Shown here one piece after another: positions 11,945 through 39,882 of a stretch of 39,882 nt of DNA; the first letter of the stretch is position 1; every line of letters begins with the position of its first letter. This stretch comes from Prevotellaceae bacterium. GTDB lineage: Bacteria; Bacteroidota; Bacteroidia; Bacteroidales; Paludibacteraceae. The translations under genes were made by a program, and so were the position numbers. The DNA lies in contig JAISYF010000173.1 in NCBI GenBank assembly GCA_031270065.1, positions 1-39,882 on the forward strand, in the 5' to 3' direction. The notes beneath the pieces are model-generated. The model did no database searches, was not told where the DNA came from, and saw nothing but the letters and a program-made list of their open reading frames with translations.

Positions 11945-14900
11945 TTATTTTGAAGTAAAATTTTCTAACGTTTGAAAATCTCTATCAGCAGTTTTAAATT
12001 CATTCATATTGAAATCTAATTTCACTCCGTTCATTGCTTGCTGCATTGCTTTAATAAATTGCTCTTGCGACATTCCGCTTGCTTGCGGAGCGGCGTTTGG
12101 AGAACTGCCGACAAAACCGCCTGCCGCGTAACCTCCGCCGTAGTTGGATGGCAGAGAATTTCCGTGAGTGCGCTTGGTGCGCTCGGCATCAATGGCGCGT
12201 ATCATCGGCACGAGCGAAGGGTTGTGCATCTCTTCCTGTGCGATAACATACTCGCCTTTATGCACAGGTAAGCCGTCTGATGCTGTGCCTGCAACTTCGT
12301 ATTTTCCGCCGTTGCCTGTGTAGCCGCCGTCAGCGTAACCGCCGTTTTTAAATTCTTCTTTGAGTTGCACTGTGCCTGTTTTTGGCGGTGAAGTGTTGCC
12401 GCCTGTGCCGTCAAGCGTTTGGGCTTGAATTGCCTGATTTTGCTTTGACATTGTGGCAATTTGCAGTGCGGTAATTCCGCCGACAATTACAGCGGCAATT
12501 GCACCTGCAATGGGTCCAAGTTGGGCAAATGCAGTAATGATTGCCATTGCACCGCTGGCGATTGCCTGCATTATTTGAATTGCGAGGTTTGACTTTGCCT
12601 GTTTTTTCTTTAAATCAAGTTCCTTTTGCGCGTACTCTTTTTCTACGGCAGAGCGTTTGTCGGCATTGTCGCCCGCGAGCGCAAGTTGCTTGTTTTTTTC
12701 TACTTCCAGTGAGGCAGTTTCGAGTTCGTGCGCCTGCGTAACAGTTGCAGAGATTGCGCCAACCACTCCTTGCACAATGCTGCCAATGCCCATTGCCCAA
12801 TCTGTCCAAGATTTATTTTGATTGTTGCGCAATTGGTCGATAGCCGAAAAAGCAGTAGAAAAGGCATCGCGGAAAGAGTTTGCCAAGTCAGAGCCGAAGT
12901 CAATATCAGACAAGTATTCGGCAAGTTGACTGAGCGATTTTTTTGAGTTATCAATAAAATCAGTTGTGGCGCGTTCCGTTTTTTTGATAACTTCAACAAT
13001 TTTTGCGTGAATTTGTTCCAAAACAGCATCATCAATCGGTGCGCCGTTTTCAATCAATTTTTGAATTTCTGCGTACAAAAGTTGACGTGAGACAACAATC
13101 AATTCGTTGTAGCGTTTGTTGATTTCGTAACGCTGCTTTTCGTAATTTTTCTCGGTAATAATGCCTTGCTTTTTCTTTCTTTCGAGTTGATAGAGTTCTT
13201 CCTCGCGAGAGTTCTTAATAGTTTCTATTTGCGCATCGGTGCTTTTTTGCAGTTGTTTTACAGTTTCTTCGGCTGCTTTTTTTGTGGCATCAGATTTTTT
13301 CTTTGCCGAATCTGTGAGAAATTTGTTGAGTTCCTGTTCTTTGTCGATAATATTTTGCCGCGCAGTTTCGTACTCTTTTGATTCTTCGCCATGATATTTT
13401 TTTATAATTTGAAGTTGCGCATTAAACGATTCAATAGCAATTTTAAGCGATTCCTCTTTAATTTTTTCGTCATAATCTTTGCTGTTTTTCAACTCCTCTT
13501 TTTTATTGTTTAGTTTTTTGAGCGTAGCAGTTTTTTCGGCTTCGAGTTCGGCATTTTCCGCATCTTTGCGGGCTTTTTCTTTGGCTTTGATTTGTTTTTC
13601 TGTGAGTTCTTGGCGTTCTTTATTTTGTTTTTTCTGCTCTGCTACGACTACTGCTGTTTCTTCTTTTAAAGCATTTTCCTGAAATTTTTTGTAACCTTCA
13701 ATGTATTCCTTTTGTTCGTCAATATTTTTTTGCGCATCTGAAATAATAGTAGAATTAACATCTCTGTATTGCGATTTAGCCATATCTTTTTCATTATCAA
13801 TGATCCTTTGCTGCGTTTGAATGTATCCCTCTGCATTTTCAATCCGACTTGCATAATAATCAGAAGTGCCAAGTCTTTTAACTTGCGCCTCTTGTTTTTC
13901 AAGTTCTATAATAACTTCCTGCGATTTTTTTTCAAAAAATGAAATCGAATTTGTCAAAGATTTGTATTCAGAATTCAATTTTTCAATTTGTTTATTACTT
14001 AAACCACCTTTTGCAAGTTCGTTTTCAATTTCCAACTGTCTTTCAAGCGATTTTGTAATAGCATCTGAAATTGCCTGCTGTTTTGCGACATTCCGCATTT
14101 TCTCAATTTTAATCTGGTATTGATAATTCACATCTTCTAACGCCGTTTTCAAAAGTTCGTTTGAAATTTTTTCATCACCAATATTTTTTAAAAAATTGGG
14201 AAACTCTTCATTGAGCCGCTTTATCAAACTTTCACGCAATTTTTCATTGTCATTTGTTTCTATAATCGCTTTTACAAGTCCATTCAAACGGTTTTTTTCT
14301 TCCATAATGGATGCGGATTTCTCTTTTTCGAGTTCGACTGTGCGCTCCTGTACGCTGTTTCGGATTTTTTCGGCTTCGGTGGCTTCGTTTGCCGTTTTTA
14401 TATATTTTAACAATGCAGCAATAGCAGCAATAATGAGAGTGGCAATCAAAATGAAAATATTTTTTTTCATTGTTGCATTTAGTTTTGACTGTGCAACATC
14501 GGCGGCATCGGTAGCGACTTTTTGTGCAAAAAGCGATTTTATTGCAGCACCAATACTTTTTATGTAATTTCCGAGAAAAGTAATAAGTGATTTTAGCCCT
14601 GTAACGCCTTGCGCATTTGCGACATTTACTAATTTTCTAACGCCGAGATAAATGCCGAGAAGTTTTATCGCTGTTCCAATCAAAGCCAAATTTCGAGTAA
14701 TCCAACCAACCAATGAAGTCAGCATATCAACTGCGATTTTCATAAATCCTTTACTGTCGTAAAAACTCAACATCAAACCCTCCCACGCTGATGAAAGCAG
14801 TTGTACGCTGCCCTGCACAGTATTGAGTTTAGTTTTCTGCATATTTTCCATTTCCTCGCCTACATCTGTAATGCTGTCTTTTAATATTGTGATGCTTTCG

Positions 14901-16114
14901 GCATTTGTCAAAAAAGTATTGAAGGCAGCAACAGAGCGTTTGTCGGTAAGTTCGAGGGTTTCATTCAGCGAAATTCCTTTGTTTTCGAGTTCCTGCAACG
15001 CAGGCGCAAGTTCATCAAGCGAAGTAATCGGTTTGCCAAGCGCAACAGCAAGTTTGCCGTTGGAGTCGGCGAGATTTAACAAAATATTTCGCGTTGCCGT
15101 TGCCGCGCTGCTTGCATCAAAACCCGCATTTGCAAGCGTTCCGAGCAACGCCGTTGTTTCTTCTATCGAAAATCCGAATGCGTTGGCAACGGGTCCAACT
15201 GTACTCATTGCATTTTCCAAAAAACTGAAATTGAGAGCCGATTTTGTAGTTGCAACAGCCATTGCAGAAACGTATCTTTGTGTTTCTTCTGTATTTGCAC
15301 CAAACATTCGCAACGCCGCGCCTGCCAATGCCGCCGCTTGCGGTAAGTTCGCGCCTGTGGCTGTGGAAAATTGCAAAACATATTGTGTCATATTTTTTAT
15401 ATCCTCCTGTCCGTAGCCGAGTTTTGCGAGTTCGGTTTGCAGTTGCGTAACCTGAGAGGCGGTGTATTCTGTGCTTTCGCCAAGCCGTTTGGCATCGGCG
15501 GTAAGTTCTTTTACGCCGTCTTGTGTAGTGCCAAGAACGGCGGCGAGGTTGGCGTTGGCATATTCAAAATCGGTAATTTTAGAAATGGCGGATTTTATGG
15601 AAGAAATAAGAAAATCTAAACTTTTAGTATAAATATCGCCAAAAAAAGCTCCCCAAGCCATTTGCCACTTTTTTAATGCTTGCGTGTCTTGAAATACGCT
15701 ATTTAATTTTGAAATGCGTTGATGCGTTTGGGAAATTTGGTCGCTTAATTCTTTCCAACGTTTTGGTTCGAGGGTTTTATTTACATTATTCTGTTCTTGC
15801 CTTAATTCTTTTAACCTTTTTGATAATTGCCCCGTCGTCAAAAACTGTAATCCCATTGATTTTTCCAAATCATGAATTTTAGTGTTATAATTACTAACGG
15901 TTTGATTATTTACTTTTATTTGCGCGGAAAGATTTTTATACTCAGAGGTATTTCCTTTGCCTTGCTTTGCAAGTTCGGTAAGTTCTGTGCGCAATTTACG
16001 ATTTTCCAAAGTAATCGTATTGATTGATTTCTGATAGTCATTAATTGCTTTTTGACTTTCAGATGCCTGTTTAAAACCAAGTTCTAATAATATTTTGTCG
16101 TTTGAAACTGCCAT
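11945..16114 (-). CDS. Phage tail tape measure protein
   Basis: 1389 aa; coiled-coil N-terminus, phage-type TMP region (ADAKRLGESTEYTASQVTQLQTELAKLGYGQEDI), hydrophobic segments. Confidence 0.9.
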   Translation of the reverse strand: MAVSNDKILLELGFKQASESQKAINDYQKSINTITLENRKLRTELTELAKQGKGNTSEYKNLSAQIKVNNQTVSNYNTKIHDLEKSMGLQFLTTGQLSKRLKELRQEQNNVNKTLEPKRWKELSDQISQTHQRISKLNSVFQDTQALKKWQMAWGAFFGDIYTKSLDFLISSIKSAISKITDFEYANANLAAVLGTTQDGVKELTADAKRLGESTEYTASQVTQLQTELAKLGYGQEDIKNMTQYVLQFSTATGANLPQAAALAGAALRMFGANTEETQRYVSAMAVATTKSALNFSFLENAMSTVGPVANAFGFSIEETTALLGTLANAGFDASSAATATRNILLNLADSNGKLAVALGKPITSLDELAPALQELENKGISLNETLELTDKRSVAAFNTFLTNAESITILKDSITDVGEEMENMQKTKLNTVQGSVQLLSSAWEGLMLSFYDSKGFMKIAVDMLTSLVGWITRNLALIGTAIKLLGIYLGVRKLVNVANAQGVTGLKSLITFLGNYIKSIGAAIKSLFAQKVATDAADVAQSKLNATMKKNIFILIATLIIAAIAALLKYIKTANEATEAEKIRNSVQERTVELEKEKSASIMEEKNRLNGLVKAIIETNDNEKLRESLIKRLNEEFPNFLKNIGDEKISNELLKTALEDVNYQYQIKIEKMRNVAKQQAISDAITKSLERQLEIENELAKGGLSNKQIEKLNSEYKSLTNSISFFEKKSQEVIIELEKQEAQVKRLGTSDYYASRIENAEGYIQTQQRIIDNEKDMAKSQYRDVNSTIISDAQKNIDEQKEYIEGYKKFQENALKEETAVVVAEQKKQNKERQELTEKQIKAKEKARKDAENAELEAEKTATLKKLNNKKEELKNSKDYDEKIKEESLKIAIESFNAQLQIIKKYHGEESKEYETARQNIIDKEQELNKFLTDSAKKKSDATKKAAEETVKQLQKSTDAQIETIKNSREEELYQLERKKKQGIITEKNYEKQRYEINKRYNELIVVSRQLLYAEIQKLIENGAPIDDAVLEQIHAKIVEVIKKTERATTDFIDNSKKSLSQLAEYLSDIDFGSDLANSFRDAFSTAFSAIDQLRNNQNKSWTDWAMGIGSIVQGVVGAISATVTQAHELETASLEVEKNKQLALAGDNADKRSAVEKEYAQKELDLKKKQAKSNLAIQIMQAIASGAMAIITAFAQLGPIAGAIAAVIVGGITALQIATMSKQNQAIQAQTLDGTGGNTSPPKTGTVQLKEEFKNGGYADGGYTGNGGKYEVAGTASDGLPVHKGEYVIAQEEMHNPSLVPMIRAIDAERTKRTHGNSLPSNYGGGYAAGGFVGSSPNAAPQASGMSQEQFIKAMQQAMNGVKLDFNMNEFKTADRDFQTLENFTSK

Positions 16115-25939: not shown

Positions 25940-26321
25940 ATGAAAAAATTTGATATTACAAAATTTTATCCTTGTGTTGAATACTATAAGGCATCTTTTG
26001 GAAGACAAAAGAAGCATAGATGCCATTGACGCCGCTATGCGATACGCCAACGGCGATATGACAAGAGTTGAGTTAGATAAGTATGTTGCTGCTGCTTATA
26101 CTGCGTATGTTGCTTCTGATGCTGCTTATGCTGTTTCTGTTTTTGATGCTGATGATATTTATCTTGATGTTGCTCGTGCTGCTACTGTTTCTGCTGCTGT
26201 TTCTGCTGCTGTTTCTGCTGCTGCTGATGCTTATAATATTGCTTATAATTCCAACTGCAAAGCAACTGCCAACATTTGCAGGGAGATTTTAACCACAACA
26301 GTTCTTGAAATAATAAATTAA
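25940..26321 (+). pseudogene. Ala-rich small protein, apparently +1 frameshifted (MKKFDITKFYPCVEYYKASF | EDKRSIDAIDAAMRY...)
   Basis: Frame from ATG 25940 stops after KASFGRQKKHRCH; the open frame to 26321 begins only at a TTG (25950). Joining at TCT-TTT-(G)-GAA-GAC restores one continuous protein. Confidence 0.6.
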
Positions 26322-26400
26322 CAACAGCGGGGTCAAAATTGAAATTGTGAATTACTTTCAAAATTTATGTTACTTGTCTTTTTAACGGACAGGGCGCGGG

Positions 26401-26437
26401 TGTAACTTGTTGGAAATTAACAAGTTACATTTTTTTT
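26401..26437 (+). terminator. Intrinsic terminator of early operon
   Basis: TGTAACTTGTT-GGAAATT-AACAAGTTACA-TTTTTTTT. Confidence 0.9.
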
Positions 26438-26457: not shown

Positions 26458-26487
26458 TTTGTATATTAAATTTTTTTTGTATCTTTG
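26458..26487 (+). promoter_or_regulatory. Promoter of candidate ncRNA
   Basis: TTTG (26458-26461), N18, TATCTTTG (26480-26487). Confidence 0.7.
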
Positions 26488-26491
26488 CGCC

Positions 26492-26618
26492 GTTATTTGA
26501 AACGGAAACGGGCAACGCAGGGGTGCGACCCGTCAGGGATAAAATAACCAACAGAGGCAGAATTTAACTTTGTGAATATGCACAACGCGGTATAGAACGC
26601 TTGTGCACTATTTTTTTT
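26492..26618 (+). ncRNA. Stand-alone structured phage ncRNA
   Basis: Begins at predicted TSS: P1 GTTATTT(26492-26498)/AAATAAC(26542-26548), P2 ACGGG/CCCGT (26508-26512/26529-26533), P3 CGCA-GGGG-TGCG (26516-26527); ends with terminator hairpin TGCACAA.../...TTGTGCA (26579-26607) and T8. Confidence 0.75.
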
Positions 26619-26764
26619 GTCAATATAAGTTCCATTTCCAAAAACAGACAAATGCGCTTAAAACGGCTCTAAAAGCCTCATTCACCTGCCTGTTTGCAAA
26701 TGCCTCAAAAACCCCTCAAACAAACTATAAAAATGATTAAAAAACAATCAAAGTAAAATAGACA

Positions 26765-36461: not shown

Positions 36462-37874
36462 ATGAATATCATACAAAGTAATATAGCGGGTGCGAATCAA
36501 AGGTATTTGACTATTTATGATGCAAACAAAGATTTTGCGCTAAAAACAGATATTCCGATAATACCGGAGTCAATAGTTATTGATGCGTACAATATGTTTG
36601 ATTGGGAAAGTACAACTGAAAATTTTGTTTCGGCACTATTTTACAACACTAAGGACCCGATTATAAAATTATGCGTAAATAATGAAAGTGAGGATTCACT
36701 TGTAATTACAGCGGAATTAGGTTTTGGGGCTAAAGTAGGCAGCGTAAATAACGTTGTTTTCGATGCCGATGGAGTAGCACAGATTGTAGAAATTACACCC
36801 GAAATAGGGCAGACGCAAACAACTATCACTATACCTGCTGCCTGCAAAGGCGAAATATTTTATGGTTGCGATGTAACTGAAAATAACTTTGGCAAGTCAT
36901 ACATCATTGCCAATCAGGGGGAAGGCGGGACTATAATAGTGAAATTAGTTGCTTCTGACTTTGCGAAGTTCTTTAACTTTGGCGACGAAAGTACTGTTAT
37001 CGTTTTTGAGAATATTTCTGTTGCCAAGTCCGCAGTAACAAGTATTGTAATTAACGATGATATTATACCCGCAGCATTGGCGGATGGCGTAAACACGACG
37101 ATTAGCGAACGTTTTATAACAAATTTTATAAATTGTACTTTTGTAGATTTTTACGGATTGCGAAATGTTACTTATTTTGGCAACGGATCTTTTGCAAGCA
37201 TTGCAGCAAATAATCCCGCAACTTATTTTACGAATGTTATAAAAGTCGGATTTAGTTTCTTCTCAGAATTTAGAGGAACTCAATTTGATTTGACGCCATT
37301 TTCTAACTTGCAAGAAGCAGATTTATATTTCATTTCAAATTGGAATAATGTTTTAGAATTAGATTTGAGTAAGTTAGTAAAGTTAGGAGGAAGCTTTCAA
37401 ATGTTTCTTGAAAACCTTCCGCAATTACAATCGAATGTTTCTTTAGATTTTCTTGATAACGAAATGACTACTGGATTTAATCTGGTTTCTTGTCTATCGC
37501 GTCTCTATTCTGTCAAACGTATTGACGTATCTAAATTGGCAACTATTGATTTGGATAAATTTATACATGGATATTATTGGAACGATAGAATTGCCTTTGC
37601 TGCAAATTCGTTAGAAGAATTTGTAATTGGCGATTACATAATTCCGCAGAGTCAGCCTGTATCGACAGGAACTTTGCAGCGTACATTAGCTGTGCAAGAA
37701 TATTCACCCGCAGCAATTAACGGCATAACCATCACAGGAACGAGGGCTGCCGTAGGTAGACTGATAGAAGTAATTGGAGACCAAACTCCCTACCATTACA
37801 ACGGTTATCCTTCTTTTGAATATAATTTTGTTTGGAATTTAATCTCAAATTATACAGACGTGAATAATGACTAA
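36462..37874 (+). CDS. Putative spike/receptor-binding protein, leucine-rich-repeat-like C-terminal half
   Basis: 470 aa; DFYGLRNVTYFGNGSF...PFSNLQEADLYFI...LDLSKLVKLGGSFQMFLENLPQL...VKRIDVSKLATIDL. Confidence 0.5.
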   Translation: MNIIQSNIAGANQRYLTIYDANKDFALKTDIPIIPESIVIDAYNMFDWESTTENFVSALFYNTKDPIIKLCVNNESEDSLVITAELGFGAKVGSVNNVVFDADGVAQIVEITPEIGQTQTTITIPAACKGEIFYGCDVTENNFGKSYIIANQGEGGTIIVKLVASDFAKFFNFGDESTVIVFENISVAKSAVTSIVINDDIIPAALADGVNTTISERFITNFINCTFVDFYGLRNVTYFGNGSFASIAANNPATYFTNVIKVGFSFFSEFRGTQFDLTPFSNLQEADLYFISNWNNVLELDLSKLVKLGGSFQMFLENLPQLQSNVSLDFLDNEMTTGFNLVSCLSRLYSVKRIDVSKLATIDLDKFIHGYYWNDRIAFAANSLEEFVIGDYIIPQSQPVSTGTLQRTLAVQEYSPAAINGITITGTRAAVGRLIEVIGDQTPYHYNGYPSFEYNFVWNLISNYTDVNND

Positions 37875-38442
37875 ACAGCAATTCATATCTACCTATTGGC
37901 AACACGCTGTTGCTTGTCAGACTGCATACGGGTTGCCGTTAGCGGTTATTTTGGCACAGGCGGGGCTTGAGAGTGGTTGGGGTGCTTCTGTTTATCAAAA
38001 TAATTTTTTTGGCATAAAGGCAAATAGTGCGTGGAAAGGCAAGAAGCAACTTTTGCGAACACACGAAATGTTGCCAAAGAGTAGCGGGTATTCGTTCCCG
38101 GAAGTGATTAGCATAACACCCACAAGCACAGGTAAGTATGATTGGTATGTACGTGATTATTTTCGGGCTTACGACACAGCGGAAGAGGGTTTTATGGATT
38201 ATGGAGCATTTATAACGGGTAACTCAAGATATAACAATGCGGTTATAAATTACAAAAACACAGGCAACTGGCAGGCGTATTGCAGAGATATTGCGGCAGC
38301 GGGGTACGCAACGGCTACAAACTATGCGAACAGTTTAATTAGCACAACCGAACAGGTAATAAATTATCTGCCTCTTGATTGGCAACAAGTAAAGGCAAAT
38401 TCGGCAAAAAAAAAAACTTCGCTGGTGGTTCAGAATTTTTAA
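37867..38442 (+). CDS. Glucosaminidase / FlgJ-like lytic enzyme
   Basis: 191 aa; GLPLAVILAQAGLESGWGAS...NNFFGIKANSAWKGK...FRAYDTAEEGFMDYGAFITGNSRYNNA...YATATNYANSLI. Confidence 0.85.
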   Translation: MTKQQFISTYWQHAVACQTAYGLPLAVILAQAGLESGWGASVYQNNFFGIKANSAWKGKKQLLRTHEMLPKSSGYSFPEVISITPTSTGKYDWYVRDYFRAYDTAEEGFMDYGAFITGNSRYNNAVINYKNTGNWQAYCRDIAAAGYATATNYANSLISTTEQVINYLPLDWQQVKANSAKKKTSLVVQNF

Positions 38443-38531
38443 TAATTGGAATTTTAGCAGGATTATATTTTTTAAATAATAAAAACAAAAACAATTTTGA
38501 TTGTATGATAAAAAATTATATTAAAAATTAA
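38406..38531 (+). other. A11 slippery tract plus -1-frame extension encoding a C-terminal TM anchor
   Basis: A11 at 38406-38416; -1 frame from 38415 reads NFAGGSEFLIIGILAGLYFLNNKNKNNFDCMIKNYIKN then TAA (38529-38531). Confidence 0.6.
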
Positions 38532-38549
38532 AAATTAAATAATAAAATT

Positions 38550-38903
38550 ATGGAAATTCAAACAATTATTTCAGCAATCATAGGGCTGTTAGCCTTAATT
38601 GCAACAGGTGGATGGTTTATTAATTATCGTCAAAAAAAAACTATCGAAAGCGCAAGTGCCGACAATGCTACTTTATCGGCTTCAAAAAATGCCGTTGATT
38701 TAGCCAATGAGATAGCACAGAAATACAACACTATTATTTTATCTTCAATGGGGGAGCACGAGAAACGCCACGATGATGTGGAAAGTAAACTTGATGTATT
38801 ATTGTATGAGGTTACAATTATTGGTAAATATCTAAATGGCGGGTTGGCAAAGTTCAAAAAACAGCAGCGTGATGAACGTGGGCGTTTCATTAAAAAAAAA
38901 TGA
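38550..38903 (+). CDS. Single-TM holin/lysis-like protein
   Basis: 117 aa; IISAIIGLLALIATGGWFINY N-terminal TM, coiled middle, basic C-terminus FKKQQRDERGRFIKKK; downstream of lytic enzyme. Confidence 0.55.
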   Translation: MEIQTIISAIIGLLALIATGGWFINYRQKKTIESASADNATLSASKNAVDLANEIAQKYNTIILSSMGEHEKRHDDVESKLDVLLYEVTIIGKYLNGGLAKFKKQQRDERGRFIKKK

Positions 38904-39359: not shown

Positions 39360-39395
39360 AATGGATTCCCGCCTTTGCGGGTTTCCATTTTTTTA
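39360..39395 (+). terminator. Intrinsic terminator of late operon
   Basis: ATGGATTCCCGCCTTTGCGGGTTTCCATTTTTTTA. Confidence 0.8.
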
Positions 39396-39791
39396 TATTG
39401 TACCAAAAAATTGTGAATTATCCTTTGCAATTTTGGTGCGTTTTTTTATGTATCGTTCCGTTGTGTCAAAAGATTTATGCCTGCAATGATTCATTACATC
39501 AAACGGGTGCATACCATTTTGTAACGCTGTAATTATGCCTGTGTGCTTGAAAGAATAAAATTTACATTGAGGGTTAATTCCGAGTTCGCGGCGTACATCA
39601 GCGAAGAGGCGGTTAAAATGATTCATTCCGAAAGGTTTATTTTCTGTAACAGATTTTTTTCTAAATAGGTAATAATCAGCGTTTTGCAAGTGGTAACCTT
39701 GCATAATTAATTGTTCTAATAAAATTTTCGGAATAACTACATTTTCCGTTGTTCTATTTTTTGGGTAATGATGCCAAAAATAGTTGGTAAT
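39393..39791 (-). pseudogene. Tyrosine recombinase remnant (C-terminal catalytic part only)
   Basis: FYSFKHTGIITALQNGMHPFDVMNHCRHKSFDTTERYIKK (H-x-x-x, H, Y motifs). Frame stays open upstream as ITNYFWHHYPKNRTTENVVIPKILLEQLI then meets a TAA (+ strand 39792-39794); N-terminal domain and first catalytic Arg absent. Confidence 0.7.
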
Positions 39792-39882
39792 TTAATGCCC
39801 AAAAAGTTGTATATTTGCGGCGAAGTTGAAGAGGAAACAGGCTCTGCTGGGGAGCAACCTATCAGAAATAGACTTCGGATAT

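Follow-up and report, generated by a model that had tools for sequence, protein, structure and literature searches.

Small RNAs encoded by an insertion sequence (IS) can modulate its transposase, as RNA-OUT does for IS10. Likewise, Asr9 and Ssr9 of ISPpu9 are small IS-encoded RNAs that modulate transposase (PMC8450116). The bridge RNA of IS110/IS1111 elements is a structured RNA with several stem-loops, encoded in a non-coding end of the IS (PMC11208160), and RAGATH-18, the IS607 reRNA, has been reported with IS607 TnpB only (PMC11061315). Here we describe a putative RNA gene at 26492-26715 of a 39,882-nt stretch of DNA from a Prevotellaceae bacterium (contig JAISYF010000173.1; hereafter the window), for which a sequence-only reading had proposed a stand-alone structured noncoding RNA (ncRNA) with its own promoter in a prophage. 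Sequence comparison makes us nearly certain that this RNA belongs to a family with a conserved structure, which has no match in Rfam 15 and is presumably undescribed. Several relatives lie inside insertion sequences, and the family may serve the mobility of such elements; this explanation as a whole, family and role together, we regard as evenly balanced between right and wrong. Coordinates refer to the forward strand of the window, on which both RNA copies and their parts are encoded.

Results

Domain 1 of the window RNA (26492-26548) comprises three nested helices, as delineated by comparative data and by model R2. P1 pairs GTTATTT (26492-26498) with AAATAAC (26542-26548), P2 pairs ACGGG (26508-26512) with CCCGT (26529-26533), and P3 pairs CGCA (26516-26519) with TGCG (26524-26527) beneath a GGGG loop (26520-26523). 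An internal loop (GAAACGGAA / CAGGGATA) separates P1 from P2, and bulges of CAA and A lie between P2 and P3. The nested helices, which the sequence-only reading had placed at these positions and considered unlikely by chance, do exceed chance expectation: the fold energy of 26490-26623 (134 nt) is -40.7 kcal/mol, whereas shuffled sequences average -27.9 (z -3.74; 0/200 shuffles were better), and the core pattern occurs once in the window and never in 100 shuffles. The single-sequence minimum free energy (MFE) fold pairs CCGUU with AACGG instead of forming P1; P1 was accepted because it is supported by the comparative data, not by the MFE fold. Model R2, built from 9 sequences with the window copy among them, matches domain 1 over its full length (70.2 bits, E 2.8e-15).

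Relatives of the window RNA were sorted into two subtypes, and additional variants have the same core. Subtype A, to which the window copy belongs, reads P1, GAAACGGA, P2, CAA, P3 with its GGGG loop, A, P2', AGGGATA and P1', while subtype B carries GGAGGATA on the 5' side and GAGCGCC on the 3' side. Among 42 subtype B sequences, 12 of 16 pairs showed two-sided changes and 88.5% of cells were paired; none of 500 shuffles reached the covariation score, and sliding the partner by one column lowered pairing to 37-49%. Similarly, the 9 subtype A sequences displayed two-sided changes in 13 of the 17 pairs, and 92% of their cells were paired (0/500 shuffles); in this alignment the register of P1 was maintained by inserting one N in three rows. 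Most letters of the core were fixed by the search pattern, and GG, GC and GGGG are therefore invariant in part because of how the sequences were picked; no such constraint applied to P1, the N-N pair or the flanks. Covariation of the helices had been named as a check on the original proposal, and its outcome in both subtypes argues for a structured ncRNA. On the RNA strand, G-U exceeded A-C (44 v 20 and 14 v 3), and therefore an RNA rather than a DNA structure, and the given strand, are favoured.

The arrangement of TTTG followed by TAnnTTTG is the form of promoter found in Bacteroidota, and in the window it is represented by TTTG (26458-26461) and TAtcTTTG (26480-26487). This promoter (26458-26487) stands at the base of P1, in agreement with the sequence-only reading, and transcription is expected to start near 26488-26493. 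Relatives share the feature: TANNTTYG was found at most 16 nt upstream of the RNA in 26/28 of them, compared to 2/112 control stretches.

Relatives also share a conserved tail, mostly 90-130 nt past the core (GCGATAAACCC in subtype B and ATGCCnnnAAAAACCC in subtype A). The loop of P3 and the tail, which lies ~100-190 nt downstream, co-vary as GGGG/CCC, GGGA/UCC and GAGG/CCU. They were complementary at all three positions in 44/58 loci, a count matched by none of 20,000 permutations, with tails located using a pattern nearly blind to the three pairing letters. At the two positions that vary, Fisher p values were 2e-5 and 0.016, respectively, and an earlier tail search supplies more GGGA/UCC cases. 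The window copy possesses the tail ATGCCTCAAAAACCCC (26700-26715), of which AAAAACCCC (26707-26715) is complementary to the GGGG loop; on the basis of the covariation in relatives, CCC at 26712-26714 is predicted to pair with G26521-G26523 in a pseudoknot. P1 and the tail are separated by a long, variable helix, P4, for which at least 6 outer pairs were present in 46/51 relatives versus 43% of shuffled sequences. An inner hairpin within P4, often followed by a U-rich run, is common across the family. Folding suggests that the window copy can itself form P4 (26549-26697), with outer strands at about 26549-26560 and 26686-26697 and several hairpins inside. Since the tail and a foldable P4 are both present, the full window RNA probably spans about 26490-26715 (~225 nt).

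The hairpin (26579-26608) plus T8 (26611-26618) that the sequence-only reading took to end a ~125-nt transcript is indeed present at 26579-26618. It is probably not the end of the full RNA: it fits an internal hairpin of P4, and in relatives the conserved loop-pairing tail lies behind it. A short form of the RNA ending at U8 may also exist. Our terminator scan omitted this hairpin, as its loop exceeds the length allowed by the scan rule.

Two further observations concern the tail. In three relatives (L099, L141 and L159) the RNA unit lies between inverted repeats of about 30 nt, the right arm of which includes the tail (GGGTTTATCGC ... GCGATAAACCC); these units may be mini-elements, with the tail forming their ends. 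In two others (L228 and L231) the tail overlaps, on the opposite strand, the codons for a GFF that is shared near the transposase C-terminus.

DNA searches turned up another copy in the window's own genome, on a different contig (L002), whose P2 and P3 carry compensating changes, as well as an exact match of 22 nt in another genus. Many further relatives came from pattern scans of viral and genome contigs, and they occur in Bacteroidota, Clostridia, Bacilli, Desulfobacterota, Planctomycetes and other taxa, often with several copies per genome (up to 9). Many lie at contig ends, as expected for repeats. Model R2 matched the RNA in 24/150 genomes of the window's family and 34/295 of its class, the window's own genome included. 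A phylum-wide search with the exact pattern returned this genome only, because most other Bacteroidota copies have CTC, not CAA, in the bulge. The loose core pattern gave many chance matches in genome contigs (about 90 expected, by our own estimate), and its matches were used only if the inner pair was accompanied by the outer helix or conserved flanks. In viral contigs, subtype A patterns yielded nothing but chance matches, mostly to one recurrent phage gene. Comparing the DNA directly with phages, plasmids and E. coli gave only AT-rich chance matches, bar two plasmid relatives recovered using the subtype B consensus. A 2376-bp plasmid of an uncultured bacterium (L158, HG796808.1) carries a B-type RNA at 1392-1640, within a region annotated as protein-coding; that annotation is probably wrong.

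At the gathering threshold, Rfam 15 gave no match for the window or for 14 relatives, and a relaxed search of the window locus returned chance-level matches only. In 10 relatives, no match over the RNA attained the threshold of any family. We considered an identity with sRNA-Xcc1; no Rfam match to sRNA-Xcc1 was obtained here.

In Heyndrickxia sporothermodurans, the sequence common to 8 identical copies reaches 87 nt upstream and about 1420 nt downstream of the core, beyond which the copies diverge. This unit is an IS256 element that contains the RNA next to one of its ends, in convergent orientation to the transposase. Genomes of the window's own family have the RNA inside elements encoding an IS256 Zn-variant transposase. 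In both kinds of element it runs convergent with the transposase and lies directly within the terminal repeat. The distance between the convergent RNA and the transposase stop is often 60-160 nt, and in the Zn-variant elements the tail extends over the last part of the transposase gene. Other copies adjoin IS3, IS21 (istA, istB), IS481-like or Xer-type genes. Two relatives, L002 (GGACAAAAGTGATGCTA) and L238 (GCCAAAAATAGTTGGT), are small elements bounded by inverted repeats in which the RNA is present and the transposase absent. The transposases and recombinases identified individually near the RNA were of DDE or Xer types. A single IS110-type protein was noted among 54 neighbours of relatives scanned, no TnpB or IscB occurred in the 25 of 73 Pfam families listed for those 54 neighbours, and none of the window genes that were scanned near the RNA encodes a DEDD/serine recombinase (PF01548, PF02371).

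The window itself contains part of an insertion sequence. A terminal inverted repeat, GCCAAAAATAGTTGGTA, lies at 39773-39789, and 45 nt inside it lies domain 1 of a second RNA copy (39818-39879; model R2 37.5 bits, E 3.7e-6), which bears CTC instead of CAA and is cut by the contig end, as is the element. On one side, this copy is bounded by a terminal repeat, and another contig of the same genome carries GCCAAAAATAGTTGGTA at what appears to be the transposase-side end. Adjoining the second copy, 39393-39701 (reverse strand) encodes the C-terminal portion of an integrase of phage type (Pfam E 5e-5, short of the family's cut-off).

Upstream of the first copy, the intrinsic terminator that the sequence-only reading had assigned to the preceding transcription unit was recovered by the terminator scan and in the sequence at 26398-26437 (stem 26398-26432, then a T-run). 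The nearest clear upstream gene is weakly Rep_trans-like (E 0.1); its predicted structure is of low confidence (predicted local distance difference test score 31.6) and no solved relative was found. A small upstream protein ends in EVPF, a C-terminus typical of single-stranded DNA-binding (SSB) proteins, and may be SSB-like. The open reading frame at 25950-26321 consists of degenerate Ala/Val/Ser/Asp/Tyr repeats (GCTGTTTCTGCT-like DNA repeats) and has a weak match to phrog_18326. A prophage is present in the window (tape-measure gene 11945-16114), and host-type genes for a thiolase and an RsmD-like protein sit between the tape-measure gene and the RNA, so that the claimed membership of the RNA in that prophage is not supported. 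A glucosaminidase (endolysin-like) gene and a possible Rz-like gene (37867-38900) follow a row of same-strand genes from 27.7 kb; this region may be a second phage-like element.

Discussion

Sequence comparison shows the promoter, the fold, the pseudoknot and, in relatives, a location in transposons. What the RNA does there is less secure. We propose that it would help the elements move or restrain their movement, for example in an RNA-protein complex or by controlling transposase output. Such a role in mobility or its control, to which we assign somewhat less than even confidence, is suggested because the RNA is kept in repeat-flanked elements that have lost the transposase and because its position at the element end is fixed, running toward the transposase 3' end in relatives with traceable ends. 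The copy at 26492-26715, with its intact promoter, fold and tail, stands alone and was probably left by, or is carried on, a mobile element of this kind.

Several findings weigh against this proposal. No terminal repeats and no remains of a transposase were found around 26492-26715. Boundaries were traced for IS256-type elements only, the IS3 and IS21 cases resting on shared stretches and neighbourhood, and the RNA-only elements seen number just two. Some relatives adjoin ordinary genes, and the unrelated transposases have no common known RNA-binding part. A few relatives come from phage or plasmid records, something that a role in transposition does not call for.

The main rival, improbable but worth taking seriously, holds that varied mobile elements carry the RNA because it binds a widely conserved host factor, such as a nuclease, a defence protein, RNA polymerase or the ribosome, and acts in trans, unrelated to the chemistry of transposition. 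Its occurrence beside unrelated recombinases, on phage and plasmid records and in many phyla would fit, as would the fixed internal loops, which resemble a binding site. However, the traced copies lie at the element end, convergent with transposase, and the RNA is kept in minimal repeat-flanked elements, which favours a link to mobility; nor did the Rfam search reveal a host RNA being mimicked. The same convergent position, often so close to the transposase stop, the overlap of the tail with the gene end in Zn-variant elements, and hairpins preceded by an A-run and followed by a T-run would also suit a promoter and two-way terminator of which the RNA is a by-product, keeping outside transcription out of the transposase gene or sending antisense in. 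We consider this unlikely, since it has no need of fixed internal loops, loop/tail pairing or a covarying P1, and leaves the RNA of transposase-less elements unexplained.

It is less likely still that the structure works as DNA, as a transposase binding site or single-strand origin. The position at element ends and, in the window, the Rep-like and SSB-like genes ahead of the RNA are compatible with this, whereas the promoter in nearly all relatives examined and the fact that the RNA strand tolerates G-U better than its complement does argue against it. An IS110- or TnpB/IscB-like guide or bridge RNA, with a variable segment recognising target DNA, would occupy a similar place in a non-coding IS end, and the tail AAAGCGATAAACC may resemble part of the bridge RNA of IS621, a likeness that serves as a lead only. 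That reading is marginally more doubtful again: the neighbours are DDE transposases or Xer-type recombinases, with the lone IS110-type protein noted above, and the variable parts, unlike free guides, form helices in which changes compensate one another. Least probable of all are the functions first suggested for the locus, a lysogeny regulator, a replication countertranscript or a packaging RNA. They draw on the prophage and on the weak Rep-like and SSB-like genes directly upstream, but fail to account for the same RNA inside insertion sequences, and the neighbouring gene has no homolog in phage or viral collections.

RNA partners of transposons are known from the IS110 and TnpB/IscB systems. 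If our proposal is true, RNA control of transposition extends to a far larger set of elements. We regard it as rather doubtful, albeit conceivable, that the RNA is a common working part of several DDE families (IS256, its Zn-variant, perhaps IS3 and IS21) and of Xer-type elements, as a cofactor or controller of transposition outside IS110 and TnpB/IscB. The IS256 element of H. sporothermodurans, with its eight identical copies in a cultured strain, makes the idea directly testable, and a covariance model from the family could serve to annotate many IS ends. The main risk to the novelty of the family is that it may be the same as the 'Transposase-resistance' motif, whose name and entry under 'several phyla' hint at a connection to transposases. 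That motif stands without an Rfam number in a 2010 list of 104 candidate RNAs, which classes it as a probable cis-regulator, ambiguous as RNA (PMC2864571).

Like the IS110/IS1111 bridge RNA, the family has several stem-loops and lies in a non-coding IS end (PMC11208160); unlike it, the family shows DDE or Xer-type partners rather than DEDD recombinases, terminal repeats where these were traced, a loop/tail pseudoknot and no programmable loops that we could see. With TnpB guide RNAs it shares a pseudoknotted RNA at the IS end (PMC11061315), in contrast to which no TnpB/IscB gene was found alongside the family RNA among the Pfam families listed for its neighbours, and no variable guide follows the scaffold. 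Where the enzyme next to the RNA was identified, it was not the one that defines either system. Finally, it resembles RNA-OUT and Asr9/Ssr9 in being a small RNA encoded by an IS; whereas those belong to single elements each, here one structured family recurs across unrelated elements, at the transposase 3' end.
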